Positions 21,169-63,680 of a stretch of DNA of 64,000 nucleotides are shown piece by piece. Positions within the stretch are counted from its first letter, which is position 1; every line of letters starts with the position of its first letter. The notes under the pieces were generated by a model. The model saw only the letters and a list, made by a program, of their open reading frames with translations, had not been told where the DNA came from and did not search any database. The position numbers and the translations under genes were made by a program. The stretch comes from a virus, in the IMG/VR virus record IMGVR_UViG_3300046501_000132, positions 106,685-170,684 of that record. One strand, 5' to 3'.

Positions 21169-21299
21169 GGTAGTCCCTCCACTCGTATCTTCCCAATCGA
21201 GAATTCCCAACCCCAAGAGTTGCGAATATCCTCAAGTCTGATGGATTCATGATAGACAGCATATACATTACTACCCGCTGTTACGACCCAGACATGCAT
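21165..21299 (-). CDS. Small hypothetical protein, 44 aa
   Basis: Begins MHVWVVTAGSNVYAVYHES at an ATG overlapping the TelA stop (TAATG). Probably one beta-hairpin domain; too short to classify. Translationally coupled on both sides. Confidence 0.6.
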   Translation of the reverse strand: MHVWVVTAGSNVYAVYHESIRLEDIRNSWGWEFSIGKIRVEGLP

Positions 21300-22468
21300 T
21301 ACTTGCTCCAGCTCAACATTTCCGTCTTCATCTGCTCGCGCAGTTGATCGATCTTGGTCGAAGCGGCGGCGCGTTCCTGGCGTCCAGCTTCCTGGATCTG
21401 CTTCACTTGCTTGACCGAGTCGATCAGCTTGTTCTGGCAGTATTCCAGAGTCTCGACATCAACCACCGAGCGTTCGGATGCCTTTGCCACTGCAATTGCG
21501 TTCATATTATTCAAATCTGCCGCCTTCTTGAAGAATTCGTTTGTTTTATCGTCCATAGCGGACCCGATCTCAGCGTTTTCCTTCTGCTTCAGCTTGATGA
21601 TCGTGAGGCTGATCTGCTTCTTCCAGGCCGGAATCGTCGTATTGATCAGATCGTTGAACTTCTCCACCATCGCCACATTGCCGGTCTGAATCTGACGGAT
21701 TTCCGGCGCGGTCAGAAGAGCAATCTGCTGCATTCGCTTCAGACGGTCGATCTGCTTTTCCCACAGCTTGATCCGCTGCTCGAATTCGTTGACCGCCTGA
21801 ATCTCAAACTGATCGGTCGAACTCTCCGCGTGTGCTTTCTGAACCGCATAGTCTTGGTTCATTTCGACCAGGAGCGCCTGAGCCGCTTCGATGGAGTTAC
21901 CCAAGTCGTGGTATTCCTGGAGATTCTTCTCATACAGGTCTTCCAGGAACTTGTTGTCGGAGCGCATCGCGTCTTGACGCTTCTCCAGATCGGACACGAC
22001 CTTACCAATGGAAGTGCTCGTGTCTTCGAACTTCGCCAGGACTTCAACCTTTTTCTTCTTGGCCGAGCCAATCAGCTTGCTCAGGAAGCCCTTATTCTTG
22101 TCCATGTTCAGATCATCGACTTTGACCTGGCTCGTCAGCGCGAGAATCTGGGTGATGCCATCACCAAACTCGCCCATCTTGCCAGTTGTCGTTCTCTGAA
22201 GGATGACGTCCGAAAGGCGCGCGACTTCCTTACCGGCTTCAGTGCCAAACTCGCTGATGGTCATCTGATCCTTGACGCCCCGCGCTTTGGACAGTTTCTG
22301 CCCGACCTGGGCATTCAGAATTGGAACCGTTGCCGGGAGATTCCGAACCGGGTCAATTCCATCAGTGTAATTGCCCAACACCTTCATCGGAGCGACTTGC
22401 GGGGCCTCGGCCATCATGACCTTGTTTTCGACTTTCGGCTCATTACCGAACATACTTGCATAAGACAT
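21299..22468 (-). CDS. TelA-family (toxic anion resistance) protein, 389 aa
   Basis: ATG 22468 (MSYASMFGNEP) with AAGGAAAC upstream. Helical, with the TelA hallmarks: GFLSKLIGSAKKKKVEVLAKFEDTS (F-x-K/L-F-G-K), QRIKLWEKQIDRLKRMQQIALLTAPEIRQIQ and a long C-terminal coiled coil. TelA proteins associate with Ter stress systems. Part of the gene block from 29.2 to 21.3 kb that also encodes TerD, TerC-like and vWA proteins. Confidence 0.88.
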   Translation of the reverse strand: MSYASMFGNEPKVENKVMMAEAPQVAPMKVLGNYTDGIDPVRNLPATVPILNAQVGQKLSKARGVKDQMTISEFGTEAGKEVARLSDVILQRTTTGKMGEFGDGITQILALTSQVKVDDLNMDKNKGFLSKLIGSAKKKKVEVLAKFEDTSTSIGKVVSDLEKRQDAMRSDNKFLEDLYEKNLQEYHDLGNSIEAAQALLVEMNQDYAVQKAHAESSTDQFEIQAVNEFEQRIKLWEKQIDRLKRMQQIALLTAPEIRQIQTGNVAMVEKFNDLINTTIPAWKKQISLTIIKLKQKENAEIGSAMDDKTNEFFKKAADLNNMNAIAVAKASERSVVDVETLEYCQNKLIDSVKQVKQIQEAGRQERAAASTKIDQLREQMKTEMLSWSK

Positions 22469-22478
22469 TTTGTTTCCT

Positions 22479-22730
22479 TTATTGATAGTAGGGTGTAGAA
22501 ACACAGCCGACGACCGAATATTTCAGCGACCTCTTGGGAGGAAGCTCATCGATGTATTGGTGGTCAAACAACCAATTCCGAATCAGTTCCGCCGCGACTT
22601 CATCCTTGGCGTAGAACAGCGCAGGCCATTGGATGCATGGGATATAGTCATTAATGAACCGCTGCCCAAGACGCTGGTGATCCTCTTTCTTGCGTTCATG
22701 GATCTCCAACAGGATATCAAGACTCTGCAT
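22479..22730 (-). CDS. Hypothetical protein, 83 aa
   Basis: ATG 22730 in the end of the upstream gene. Starts MQSLDILLEIHERKKEDHQR; helical. Ter-block passenger, function unknown. Confidence 0.6.
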   Translation of the reverse strand: MQSLDILLEIHERKKEDHQRLGQRFINDYIPCIQWPALFYAKDEVAAELIRNWLFDHQYIDELPPKRSLKYSVVGCVSTPYYQ

Positions 22731-48510: not shown

Positions 48511-49524
48511 TTAGTTGACCAGAGCGTCCAGAGCTTCAACCGTGAATCCGTTATTGCGGACCATCGTGGCCTCTGCAATATCCTCCCAGCCGTTCGGATC
48601 GCCCTTCATGAACGCCGCCAGCTTGAGAATCGAGCGGAGCGAAAGCTCACGCAGATTTTCATAGTTGGCTTCCATCCATGCCATCATCATCGCCTTCTGC
48701 TCGTTGTCGATGCCGTGCACGTCGAGCATCGTCGTGTTGTTGACGACTTGCTTGATGCGCGTCATGATCTCTTTGTTCGTGTGGATGCCCAGATCCAGGT
48801 AGATCGAACGGGAGATCAGAGCCTTGAAGTGGGGTGCCAGGTTGGTCCCCTTCTCCATCAGGCGGTCAAAGTCCAGGTTGGTGATGAACACGCAGGCGCC
48901 TTCAAAATCAAACGCTTGGTCCACGCCTTGATCAGCAAGCCACTCGGATGCCGTCAGCCACGACAGATGGCGGACGTCGCCCGTATCCAGCGCCCCCTTC
49001 AGAAGATTGAGAGACGTCTCATCTTGAAAGATGACGTCGATGTCGTCCAGGACCAGGATGTCCCCTTTGTTCCGGTGCTCGAACAACTGCTGGAACAGGG
49101 CGATGGCGCTGATCTTACCTTTGAGGATCGTGAATTGGCCGATCTCATTTCGGTCGATAGCCTGATTCAAACGCTTCTCCAGGCTATACGATTTGCCGAT
49201 GCCGGCCGCGCCGGAAATGATCAGCGACCGCACCGCACCTTGGATCACAAACTCTGTGAGTTTGGCCATGATGTCGAAGCGGCGTTCAATCCGAATGCTC
49301 AGCTCACACTCAGCCGGCGCGTGGACTGGCGTCTTGCTCGTGTCCTCTACAATATGGAAGTCAGCCCGATTCGCGTGGACGTTGATTTCCTTCCCGTTGT
49401 GAACGATGCGCAAGTACAATTCTCGCTTGCATCCAACATCGCCTTGTCGTTGAGCAACCAGCGGGAATTGGCCATAGAGACTCTTGCCCCGGTACAGGCT
49501 ATCTTTGATCGATACGATTTGCAT
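48511..49524 (-). CDS. AAA+ family ATPase, 337 aa
   Basis: ATG 49524 (MQIVSIKDSLYRGKSLYGQF) with GGAGAG. Beta-rich N-terminal about 80 residues, then AAA core: Walker A ISGAAGIGKSYSLE, Walker B DILVLDDIDVI, sensor-like VFITNLDFDRL, Arg-rich ALISRSIYLDLG and C-terminal lid. Resembles the clamp-loader/DnaC-type ATPases of phages with unknown targets. Own early promoter. Confidence 0.82.
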   Translation of the reverse strand: MQIVSIKDSLYRGKSLYGQFPLVAQRQGDVGCKRELYLRIVHNGKEINVHANRADFHIVEDTSKTPVHAPAECELSIRIERRFDIMAKLTEFVIQGAVRSLIISGAAGIGKSYSLEKRLNQAIDRNEIGQFTILKGKISAIALFQQLFEHRNKGDILVLDDIDVIFQDETSLNLLKGALDTGDVRHLSWLTASEWLADQGVDQAFDFEGACVFITNLDFDRLMEKGTNLAPHFKALISRSIYLDLGIHTNKEIMTRIKQVVNNTTMLDVHGIDNEQKAMMMAWMEANYENLRELSLRSILKLAAFMKGDPNGWEDIAEATMVRNNGFTVEALDALVN

Positions 49525-49543
49525 TCTTATTCTCTCCAACGAT

Positions 49544-55352: not shown

Positions 55353-55730
55353 TTCAAACTCCGGGTTAGTTATCAGTAAGAGAATCATAAAGGAAAACCC
55401 TGACAATTCAAACGATTCGATTATTATCATAGGCGAAACTATGAGACGGTTTCCGTATATAGCGCGCTATCGGGGTCCGTAGAGCCTAGCGGGTGAGGGT
55501 GGGTTGAGCGTCTATGCGTCTAGGTGAGCCTGAGAGCGATTCTGAATATGGGCCTTGGCTAGTATAGCCTCACTATAGCGCAGCGCCTATAGCTCATTCT
55601 AGTTGGTAATAGGCTTTGGCTATCGTCTATTGATCTTGATAGGTAAAAACGATTGGTTCACCCAGGATCGAATTAGCTAACCGGAATAACCGCTAGTGAT
55701 TAAAGTATAGTTGAACTATGAGAAAAAGAA

Positions 55731-55750
55731 AAGCCCCTTTCGGGCTTTTT
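55731..55750. terminator. Intrinsic terminator not preceded by a gene
   Basis: AAGCCC/GGGCTT stem with T-runs on both strands, isolated from coding genes. Confidence 0.65.
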
Positions 55751-55833
55751 GTGCGAGGGGAAACCCTTATAGACTTGCGGACAATCTCCGTAGTATAATA
55801 AACCAAACCACCTCCATTTCAGCTATGCGGAAA

Positions 55834-55856
55834 TAAAAATTGCCCCCGAAGGGGCG
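55834..55856 (-). terminator. Intrinsic terminator
   Basis: GCCCC/GGGGC with T-rich tail on the minus strand, after the 107-aa gene. Confidence 0.75.
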
Positions 55857-55863
55857 AGCGCGT

Positions 55864-59416: not shown

Positions 59417-59440
59417 CCCCAATCTCCAATAACGTTTTAG

Positions 59441-59455
59441 CTAGACTCTAGTATA
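59441..59455 (-). promoter_or_regulatory. CTAGACTCTAG palindrome plus TATACT (copy 7)
   Basis: Last copy; marks the right end of the early small-gene array. Confidence 0.6.
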
Positions 59456-59984
59456 GCCCGGATTACAAGATTCAGGGGCGATTACTATAACTTTTTTTAT
59501 TAGGACAAACCCTAATACATACCGGACTTTAACCCGCGAATCTATGCTAATGCGTCTAGAATGTGATCTAAGCGATTTTCGGCCCTAGACGTATCTACCC
59601 TTGAGGTGCCTGTTTATATCCTTATCTATGAGCTAATAGAGCCTATACGACGATTAACCCTAGAGAACCCGTAGAACCGTATAGGACGAGAAAGAACCGT
59701 GCTCTATAGGGCTTCGCTATATAAGAAAGCCGATAGGTTCAAGACACTCCCGCTTCCCGTAAAGCCTATTAGAGTCCTACCGGCCTATAGGGGGAATTCG
59801 GGGCGTGGAATAACAGAGTAAGTGCGTACTAACTTTGTTCGGTGATATATAACCGTATAGGATCGCGCTATCATTCGCCTAAATATGATATGTTTTGCCT
59901 ATATGTGTAGTGATAGATTTTGACGATGCGAGCACGATTGTGATAGGCAAAACCTTGATAGGACGTGGCTATGCTCTCTTATTT

Positions 59985-60008
59985 GCTATAGGATGAGCCT
60001 ATGAATAG
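59985..60008 (+). repeat. Iterated element (copy 1)
   Basis: GCTATAGGATGAGCCTATGA..., 21 of 24 positions identical to 60070-60093. Confidence 0.65.
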
Positions 60009-60069
60009 ATTGTGACTATGAGACTTGTGTTGTTGATAGGCAATAGTGAGCATCTATCACACCTATTGT

Positions 60070-60093
60070 GCAATAGGATATGCCTATGAATAG
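60070..60093 (+). repeat. Iterated element (copy 2)
   Basis: GCAATAGGATATGCCTATGA..., ends in the same AATAG as copy 1. Confidence 0.65.
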
Positions 60094-60153
60094 CAAAATT
60101 CTATCGGAACACATCAGCAATAGTGTTTAGCCTAGGGCTATTGTCTAGTCCTC

Positions 60154-60177
60154 CGTATAGGGAATGACTATGAACAC
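60154..60177 (+). repeat. Iterated element (copy 3)
   Basis: CGTATAGGGAATGACTATGA..., same architecture; spaced about 85 bp from copy 2. Confidence 0.55.
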
Positions 60178-60253
60178 ACGATAGCGAAAACCTTTCAATT
60201 GGGCTCTAGGGATAGACACATGGCCTATGGCCGGTCGTCTCCCGATAACCATT

Positions 60254-60275
60254 GCCTATTAGGGAAAAGCTATGG
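60254..60275 (+). repeat. Iterated element (copy 4)
   Basis: GCCTATTAGGGAAAAGCTAT..., with GGG following. Confidence 0.5.
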
Positions 60276-60651
60276 GATCTGCATTGGGATAGCCTAGAGC
60301 TATATTGAACCATCTACTATAGATCGCAAGAAAAGTAAAGGGTTTCACAAAAATATTCCTATATACCGAATCCCTATAGAAAACGTGAATCCTTATCCTC
60401 CATGGAAATAGCTCATTTAAGCTGTTTTTCACGTTTTAGCTACTACCCCCTAGACCACGGTGCGTTTGTCGAGCTACTGGGTTCTGGTCATAGGACCGTG
60501 CTAGCAGTGCTCTAAGCCTAGGCAGAGTCATTCCCCATAGGGGTATAGCCTCGCCTAGCGAACTTCGCCCCGTAGCTCATCCTATAGGGTTATAGCTCAT
60601 TATTGTCCCTGCCTATAGGGAAGCGTATGTGATAGGGAGAATTATCTTTAC

Positions 60652-60680
60652 TTTCCTATAGGGATAGGCTTGTGTATAAT
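60652..60680 (+). promoter_or_regulatory. Promoter-like sequence in the non-coding region
   Basis: TTTCCT-17-TATAAT, with TTTACT five bases further upstream. Confidence 0.45.
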
Positions 60681-60772
60681 ACCCATATACCCGAAGGGGA
60701 TATGGATCAATGTACCCTAGTACGATGCAAGGTTATTCTAAAGTCTAATCGTATCATTCTATCAAGTCATTC

Positions 60773-60796
60773 GTCCTATAGGGGAAAGCTATGGGA
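60773..60796 (+). repeat. Iterated element (copy 5)
   Basis: GTCCTATAGGGGAAAGCTAT..., close to copy 4. Confidence 0.5.
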
Positions 60797-61096
60797 GGGT
60801 CATTAGTATTACCTATAGGGAGAACCAATGCAATAGTCAGGCACGATCACCTGGGCTGTGTAGAGCAGTGGATACATCTATCAAGATCGTGTGGGGAATA
60901 GGCAATGTTAATGCAGGGCGTGAAGCGGGGATAGCTTTGGCCTATGGGGCTGTGGGATGCGATTGGAAAATGTAACTAGACTTTTGGTTGAATGTCGTAT
61001 AGGGAGAATTGCGGGCTCCCGAAGGGGGTGGGCGTAACCATCACAGTTTATGTTTAATCACCATCAATCAGGATAACCTTGGAAAATAAATTGTGT

Positions 61097-61180
61097 GGGG
61101 GGGGGTATATGTGGAAAAAATTTGGACCCCCACCCCCTATGAAATAAAAACACCAGGCCGGGGGTATATGTGCAAAAATT
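61097..61180 (+). repeat. G-tract direct repeat pair
   Basis: Nine consecutive G at 61097-61105 followed by TATATGTGGAAAAA; second copy GGGGGTATATGTGCAAAAA at 61160-61178. Unusual for this genome. Confidence 0.7.
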
Positions 61181-61204
61181 CTGAGGGGTGGGTACTACAG
61201 GCAT

Positions 61205-62965: not shown

Positions 62966-63484
62966 TTAGTTTCCTTCAAAATCATTAATCCAAAATTGAT
63001 GACGAATGTGCATTAGCGCTTTACCCAGGAGATTCAGACCTCTCCAATTCTTACGGTTAAGCGCACGTTCATCATCCGGTGCAAGACCAATGCCCCAGAC
63101 CTTATCCACAGGCGAGGCTTCAACAATCTCGTTAGGATATGTGGCGATCAGTGCATCCTTAAGTCTCTGGCACTGTTCAAACTTTGCTTGAACAGCTTCA
63201 ATCATACACCAATAGCGTTTCTGTTCCCAAACCTTTTCATCAAAATTTGGAATACCAGCACGGCCAAATCGCTTGGCATGATAGGGAGACATCTTCGAAA
63301 TCTCACGCAAAATCTCCGGGCCTGTCCCGAAAGTCTTTGCCTTCAATGCGATAAACAATCCCTCACTATGGTCGTACTCTAGGCCATCCGCCGTCCGAAT
63401 CTTCAGATCATCATCCTCATACCAATTGGAGTAGATACTATCATTCTGCCAAAACAGAATCATTCCATTCTTTTCAACTTGCAT
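62966..63484 (-). CDS. NADAR-domain protein (YbiA/RibX-like), 172 aa
   Basis: ATG 63484 overlaps the upstream gene end. Shows the NADAR pattern: ILFWQNDSIYSNWYEDDD near the start, FIALKAKTFGTG, KRFGRAGIPN, CMIEAVQAKFEQC, IVEASPVDKVWGIGLA and the closing NWRGLNLLGKALMHIR. Family members cleave N-glycosidic bonds on riboflavin intermediates or ADP-ribose-modified substrates. In a phage it may counter host ADP-ribosylation or NAD-based defence. Confidence 0.85.
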   Translation of the reverse strand: MQVEKNGMILFWQNDSIYSNWYEDDDLKIRTADGLEYDHSEGLFIALKAKTFGTGPEILREISKMSPYHAKRFGRAGIPNFDEKVWEQKRYWCMIEAVQAKFEQCQRLKDALIATYPNEIVEASPVDKVWGIGLAPDDERALNRKNWRGLNLLGKALMHIRHQFWINDFEGN

Positions 63485-63680
63485 CGTATTCGATATACAT
63501 ATTATTGTCTTCAACAATCGTCATTACGACTGTCGCGCCACCAACACGATCTGCAATCAAATCTACAGCCTCATCTTGCGTATCTCGATTCCCAAGAAAC
63601 TTGTCCATTCCTAGGGAATTCGCCGCGCGCTGTACGGCATCAAACGATCCATCGTGTCTTTTATACAAACGGAAAAACAT
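63474..63680 (-). CDS. Hypothetical protein, 68 aa
   Basis: ATG 63680 with AAAGGATATACCA (MFFRLYKRHDGSFDAVQRAA). Coupled to the NADAR gene. Unrecognised. Confidence 0.63.
   Translation of the reverse strand: MFFRLYKRHDGSFDAVQRAANSLGMDKFLGNRDTQDEAVDLIADRVGGATVVMTIVEDNNMYIEYDAS

Follow-up and report, generated by a model that had tools for sequence, protein, structure and literature searches.

The IMG/VR virus record IMGVR_UViG_3300046501_000132 is 170,684 bp long and is classed as linear, without end repeats. The window analysed here, 64,000 nucleotides in length, covers bases 106685-170684 of that record and contains a gene-free gap (59423-61204; positions are those of the window unless the record is named) that carries an array of short inverted repeats and a tract of nine guanines. 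The closest plausible genes reach to 59422 on one side and 61205 on the other, and the genes on both flanks run leftward. That 59460-61200 is non-coding had been claimed in a first-pass annotation, and this is borne out: the gap holds no credible gene, and the longest open reading frame (ORF) inside 59460-61060 is at most 57 amino acids (aa), so that a missing gene is rejected. Nor did one emerge when TAG was read as a sense codon; recoding yields merely overlapping frames in several directions and was likewise rejected. The record encodes UvsX, a DnaB-type helicase, a primase-like protein, an ATP-dependent DNA ligase, a ribonucleotide reductase and T4-type recombination proteins, the replication and recombination genes being assigned partly from reading translations. 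Because of these genes, the primase-like protein aside, we place the phage, on predicted gene content, in the T4 superfamily. A phage collection searched for DNA relatives of the record yielded none, and the sole relative in IMG/VR is a 21-kb contig without an array, whose UvsX and DnaB proteins are approximately 81-83% identical.

The repeated element was originally written as TATAGGR-N5-CTATGRR, but since ATAG and CTAT are reverse complements a dyad, ATAG-N7-CTAT, describes it better. Twelve exact dyads and twelve one-mismatch copies lie in the gap, against three exact dyads in the other ~169 kb (two elsewhere in the window, one elsewhere in the record). The array is real and strongly non-random: in the shuffled controls that the first-pass annotation had proposed (dinucleotide shuffles, n = 2000) the mean was 0.14 dyads and the maximum 3, and when the half-sites of the gap were scattered at random (n = 5000) the mean was 0.83 and the maximum 5. 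Half-sites are themselves abundant, with 38 ATAG and 36 CTAT where the remainder of the window predicts 7 and 4, and their joint density falls from 42.6/kb in the gap to 15.4/kb in other gaps and 6.1/kb in genes. The spacing within the dyad is strict - 12 ATAG-CTAT pairs at N7, none or one at each other spacing from 0 to 13, and no more than four at any spacing to 29 - and the other gaps (6.4 kb) hold a single N7 dyad. The consensus TATAGGRNNNNNCTATG, allowing up to one mismatch, is found nowhere else in the record, and all copies are on the + strand. ATAG and CTAT are constant and the seven central bases vary freely (position 6 is a pyrimidine, Y, in 3 of the 12 dyads and position 10 a purine, R, in 9), which points to a protein bound to DNA, not to RNA hairpins.

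All five copies named by the first-pass annotation exist, though each lies 2-4 bases from the position given for it (Table 1); in the form TATAGGR-N5-CTATGRR, those at 59987, 60156 and 60777 are exact, that at 60072 has one mismatch and that at 60258 has two. They had been called iterons: the elements are indeed iterated in the gap far above chance, but as inverted repeats and not as simple direct repeats. The proposed spacing of 85-100 bp also needs qualification. In the early part of the array there is an 85-bp pattern of 30 + 17 + 38 bp (59958, 59988, 60005 / 60043, 60073, 60090 / 60157), but later dyads are irregular and follow no simple period, and the steps overall are uneven (17, 30, 38, 67, 132 bp and more). 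Steps of 17, 30, 47 and 85 bp recur, the 12 dyads including two exact pairs at 30 bp and two at 17 bp, and from CTAT to the next ATAG two distances are favoured: 19 bp (nine times, giving the 30-bp dyad period) and 2 bp (ten times, as CTATAG). A second, smaller gap (55431-55863) has 39.3 half-sites per kb and dyads at N4, N5, N6, N7 and N8, just one of them at N7; the palindrome ATAGCGCGCTAT is present among them.

Table 1. Dyads, palindromes and G-tract features of the gene-free gap, in window coordinates.
Feature	Position	Strand	First-pass position	Remarks
Gene-free region with dyad array and G-tracts	59423-61204	.		no ORF >57 aa in 59460-61060; half-sites 42.6/kb
Dyad ATAG-N7-CTAT, exact	59706-59720	+		
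Dyad, exact	59857-59871	+		
Dyad, exact	59958-59972	+		next dyad 30 bp on
Dyad, exact	59988-60002	+	59985	
Dyad, exact	60005-60019	+		17 bp past preceding dyad
Dyad, exact	60043-60057	+		
Dyad, exact	60073-60087	+	60070	30 bp past preceding dyad
Dyad, exact	60090-60104	+		17 bp past preceding dyad
Dyad, exact	60157-60171	+	60154	
Dyad, one mismatch (TTAG)	60259-60273	+	60254	
Dyad, exact	60289-60303	+		30 bp past preceding dyad
Dyad, exact	60778-60792	+	60773	
Dyad, exact	60931-60945	+		
Six CCTATAGG palindromes (overlapped half-sites)	59784-60819	.		at 59784, 60581, 60612, 60655, 60775, 60812; one other in window
G9 tract, then TATATGTG	61097-61105	+		sole G/C run of at least 6 in the 64-kb window
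Two copies of GGGGGTATATGTG[GC]AAAAA	61101-61124, 61160-61183	+		ACCCCCACCCCC in between; second copy 59 bp on

The G9 tract lies 98 bp beyond the last half-site of the array, and GGGGGGTAT is unique in the 170-kb record. Do the dyads and the tract recur together in other phages? Exact scans of 2.9 million viral contigs in IMG/VR for two dyads at a set spacing recovered 118 stretches at 30 bp, 25 at 17 bp and 27 at 26 bp, compared with 17 at a neutral control spacing of 35 bp. Longer arrays follow the same grammar, with steps of 16-31-16-30-16 in a 222-kb phage (L093), 30-16-30-17 in L064 and 31-25-30 in L108, and dyads pooled from the other contigs favour YNATAGNYNNNRNCTATNR. An extreme form of the half-site grammar is seen in tandem dyads with a 13-bp period (ATAG-N7-CTATAG...), at L187 915-1072 and L193 11614-11732 and also in L194 and L208.

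Family searches identified terminase genes adjoining the arrays in L051, L049, L108, L059 and L064, and a profile of the large terminase (TerL) built from these five was applied to all loci. TerL lies in the locus in 40 of the 77 non-redundant 30-bp cases; with the control motif GATA-N7-TATC, likewise at 30 bp, the figure is 8 of 52 (Fisher p 3e-5). The raw count for this control (93) is mostly genic, so that the raw count of one motif cannot be set against that of another, and only the spacing control and the position relative to TerL were used. Among the 55 cases outside ORFs, 28 have TerL in the locus, and in 23 of these 28 the array is 0-3 kb upstream of it. The linked TerL sequences form 25 clusters at 40% identity, and terminase-linked arrays are thus not the property of one lineage. 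In two of the records (L143 in G021 and L179 in G032) the TerL frame runs through six TGA codons, which suggests that these phages may use TGA as a sense codon.

G/C runs of at least six within 400 bp accompany 22 of 39 terminase-linked arrays, where 5.7 would be expected from random places in the same loci (none of 2000 trials was as high); arrays with no TerL in the locus show no such excess (2 of 34 against 2.5 expected). The usual forms of the tract are GGGGGGAGGGG and GGGGGGTAT, often between the array and the gene for the small terminase (terS), and TAT follows within eight bases in 13 of 34 tracts near arrays against 5 of 44 elsewhere (p 0.007). The window tract is likewise followed by TAT; it falls within the same length and distance limits, and the array has both the 30- and the 17-bp steps of the terminase-linked class. 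Contig ends lie within 200 bp of 9 of 78 arrays (2.5 expected, p 0.001), with no excess for the control motif; this fits genome termini near the arrays, though contigs also break for other reasons. The linear record of Marinobacter phage AS1 starts 70 bp before terS, with GGGGGGGTATCC approximately 36 bp from its first base.

Taken together, these observations lead us to interpret the gap tentatively, as a plausible but far from assured candidate, as the packaging-initiation (pac/terminus) site of a T4-superfamily phage, bound by a dimeric protein. The first-pass annotation had listed packaging or recombination sites among several options, and packaging gains support from the related arrays in other phages, which lie upstream of terminase genes and are followed by a G-tract. 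Under this interpretation, the dyads would be occupied by numerous molecules of a protein that binds DNA as a dimer and may be the small terminase or a helper from phage or host; the candidate small terminase of this phage is ORF 753-1319 of L211, immediately before the TerL gene. The half-sites lie one helical turn (11 bp) apart, and the dyads themselves repeat at about 1.5 and 3 turns. The bound dimers could then wrap or bend the DNA into one compact nucleoprotein complex, and this complex would present the G-tract (G9-TATATGTG, right of the array) to terminase, with the first cut or threading of the concatemer taking place there. The array, its dyad character, the strict N7 spacing, the neighbouring G-tract and the recurrence of both parts upstream of terminase genes in other phages are observed; it is the binding protein, the cut and the same role here despite distant terminase genes that we infer.

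Several observations weigh against a packaging site. First, the terminase genes are remote: in record coordinates TerL is at 37.2-38.8 kb and the array at 166.1-167.7 kb, more than 40 kb apart even if the genome is circular, and the array thus does not adjoin terS/terL, a usual though not required trait of pac and cos sites. Second, the inner bases differ, Y at position 6 being found in 73% of the terminase-linked class against the 3 of 12 in the window (p 0.0007). Third, the spacing-35 control is also upstream of TerL in three of its four non-coding TerL cases, so the location effect is partly non-specific and in part reflects where phages keep non-coding DNA. Fourth, the small terminase (TerS) candidates beside linked arrays, 28 in all, form 18 clusters, and because there are so many TerS families, it is difficult to see how TerS could read a single conserved code. 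Fifth, dyad arrays are absent from cultured relatives of the terminase-linked phages (VspSw_1, T5, Mx8, BUCT555, 45A6, AS1, BgVeeders33, PotUPM1, P5, PaMx41, ct2os315, QDWS535 and Vibrio 1.157.O), and the sequence of phage ICP1, its mapped pac region included, has no exact ATAG-N7-CTAT dyads. Finally, a lone G9 tract would lie this close by chance in approximately 4% of cases (the array plus 400 bp on each side, relative to window length). A literature search, mostly without subscription papers, found no description of the ATAG-N7-CTAT motif at packaging sites.

Gene-free stretches upstream of terminase are also seen in two of the cultured phages, Alcaligenes phage QDWS535 (L453 2590-3900) and Pseudomonas phage PaMx41 (L451 1880-2250), where G-tracts accompany iterated CTA-type words of another kind (CCTAATATTAGG, GGCTAATCCTGG). 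These are perhaps the same kind of site written in another code.

A broader proposal, which we consider rather unlikely, is that one dyad code (steps of 17, 26 and 30 bp) with a G-tract beside it is common to many tailed phages that are unrelated and differ in their small terminases, because the packaging start is marked by a host protein they have in common or by a phage protein of wide distribution; in the large T4-like phages the mark would have shifted to a place distant from the terminase genes. A shared host factor that reads the dyads is possible, though unsupported.

Could the array instead be an origin of replication? Here a phage initiator would bind the dyads as a dimer, open the DNA and load the DnaB-type helicase, as at iteron-type origins, and we regard this as unlikely, though a serious alternative. 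The record encodes the DnaB-type helicase, UvsX and the primase-like protein that such a system might use, and iteron-like repeats are present in T4 oriE, where their role is unproven (PMC3016281). A gene for an AAA+-type ATPase (phrog_1250) lies 0.4-4 kb from non-terminase arrays in three large phages (L093/L081, L055, L130), and the late rolling-circle origin of ICP1 is near its pac site (PMC9040626), so both roles can coincide. Against this, no inversion of GC skew was seen at the array within the genome stretches analysed, the uniformly leftward flanking genes give no divergent transcription, and the uneven dyad steps differ from the evenly spaced direct repeats of iteron origins. The origin reading also leaves the terminase-linked arrays of other phages unexplained. 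The suggestion of an origin in the first-pass annotation therefore found no support beyond a general likeness. The window has a phrog_1250 gene of its own (48511-49539, - strand), 10 kb from the array, for an AAA+-like ATPase of unknown function; the phrog_1250 model bears a weak likeness to AAA+ proteins, Hda, DnaA and ORC among them, with generic fold matches and a mean predicted local distance difference test score (pLDDT) of 65.

Regulation is a further alternative, and a doubtful one: the dyads would be operators for a dimeric transcription factor of phage or host, controlling the leftward early genes from 59422 or titrating a host regulator. Small leftward genes do start at the left edge of the gap, and a promoter-like CTAGACTCTAGTATA (TATACTAGAGTCTAG on the - strand) lies at 59441 and five times more at 56.2-58.1 kb. 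The six copies are exact (56214, 56697, 57519, 57682, 58070 and 59441) and mostly just upstream of small leftward genes; this is likely to be a shared early-promoter element, judging from its letters and placement. In an OxyR/LysR-type operator each half has the form T-N11-A, and two LysR-type sites usually lie 30 bp apart. The dyads are compatible with both, sharing the core letters as well as the T-N11-A geometry with such operators. However, the two dyads of an OxyR pair are separated by 22 bp and have an inner t and a, whereas the window dyads, with steps of 17, 30 and 47 bp, include no 22-bp pair and lack the inner bases, and neither this record nor 23 further phage records that carry such dyads yielded a LysR-type helix-turn-helix above cut-off. 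An OxyR/LysR operator is disfavoured on these grounds, though a host OxyR keeps a small probability as the reader. In bacterial genomes, none of the 117 two-dyad stretches among the matches listed has TerL and 52 of them are in ORFs, so that a host operator by itself does not account for the phage class. The idea that these are promoters, also raised in the first-pass annotation, fares no better, since sigma-70 hexamers are not enriched (9 found against 11.5 expected in 57-64 kb), and a sigma-70 promoter array was rejected.

Two explanations remain, both very improbable. The array may have no function, being leftover non-coding DNA rich in words avoided in genes (CTA, TAG, ATA) and duplicated by chance; the raised half-site density of other gaps would agree with this, but the N7 spacing is specific, at 12 dyads against at most 5 in the random placements and one in the other gaps. 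Least probable is a structured or repeated non-coding RNA, for although a 481-nt part of the gap folds better than shuffles (z -2.7) and ICP1-group phages express abundant non-coding RNAs (PMC9040626), the opposite strand folds equally (z -2.5), as DNA dyads would, the letters of the 'stem' never vary while those of the 7-base centre do so freely, which is the reverse of covariation, and an Rfam search gave no match; an RNA family or hairpin array, another early suggestion, was rejected accordingly.

To the right of the array is a gene for a NADAR-domain protein (62966-63517, - strand; Pfam E value 3e-38). NADAR proteins act on ADP-ribose and may serve in counter-defence. Further left, 21299-22504 (- strand) matches phrog_5890, annotated as tellurite resistance (E value 4e-76).

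Only for a few phages is it understood in detail how terminase selects phage DNA, and a packaging site can seldom be recognised from sequence alone. If the packaging interpretation is true, a signature of dyads plus G-tract, linked to approximately 25 TerL clusters, would allow packaging sites to be predicted from metagenomes, and for T4-superfamily phages outside the coliphages the gap would be a concrete candidate pac site far from the terminase genes. The different TerS families beside the same core raise the question of which protein reads the dyads, and the wider dyad/G-tract pattern across phages deserves a direct test.

Known systems resemble the array in different respects. The T4 oriE iterons are likewise repeats in a T4-superfamily genome and suspected initiator binding sites, but they are evenly spaced, whereas the window has unevenly spaced 15-bp dyads. 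The regions upstream of terS in siphophages from IMG/VR (L051, L049, L108, L059, L064, L116 and others), for which we infer a cos/pac role from position, have the same dyad core, the 30- and 17-bp steps and, at many, the G-tract; unlike the window array, they adjoin terS/terL and carry the inner Y/R bases. ICP1 offers a precedent for a packaging site in a large stretch without genes: PhageTerm placed its pac between gp1 and gp2, in 1.3 kb free of ORFs (PMC7145576), and its TerL is Gp129-128 (PMC9040626). The ICP1 site was mapped from reads, whereas that in the window is known from its letters only, but both are large gene-free stretches of a lytic myophage, distant from the large terminase gene.
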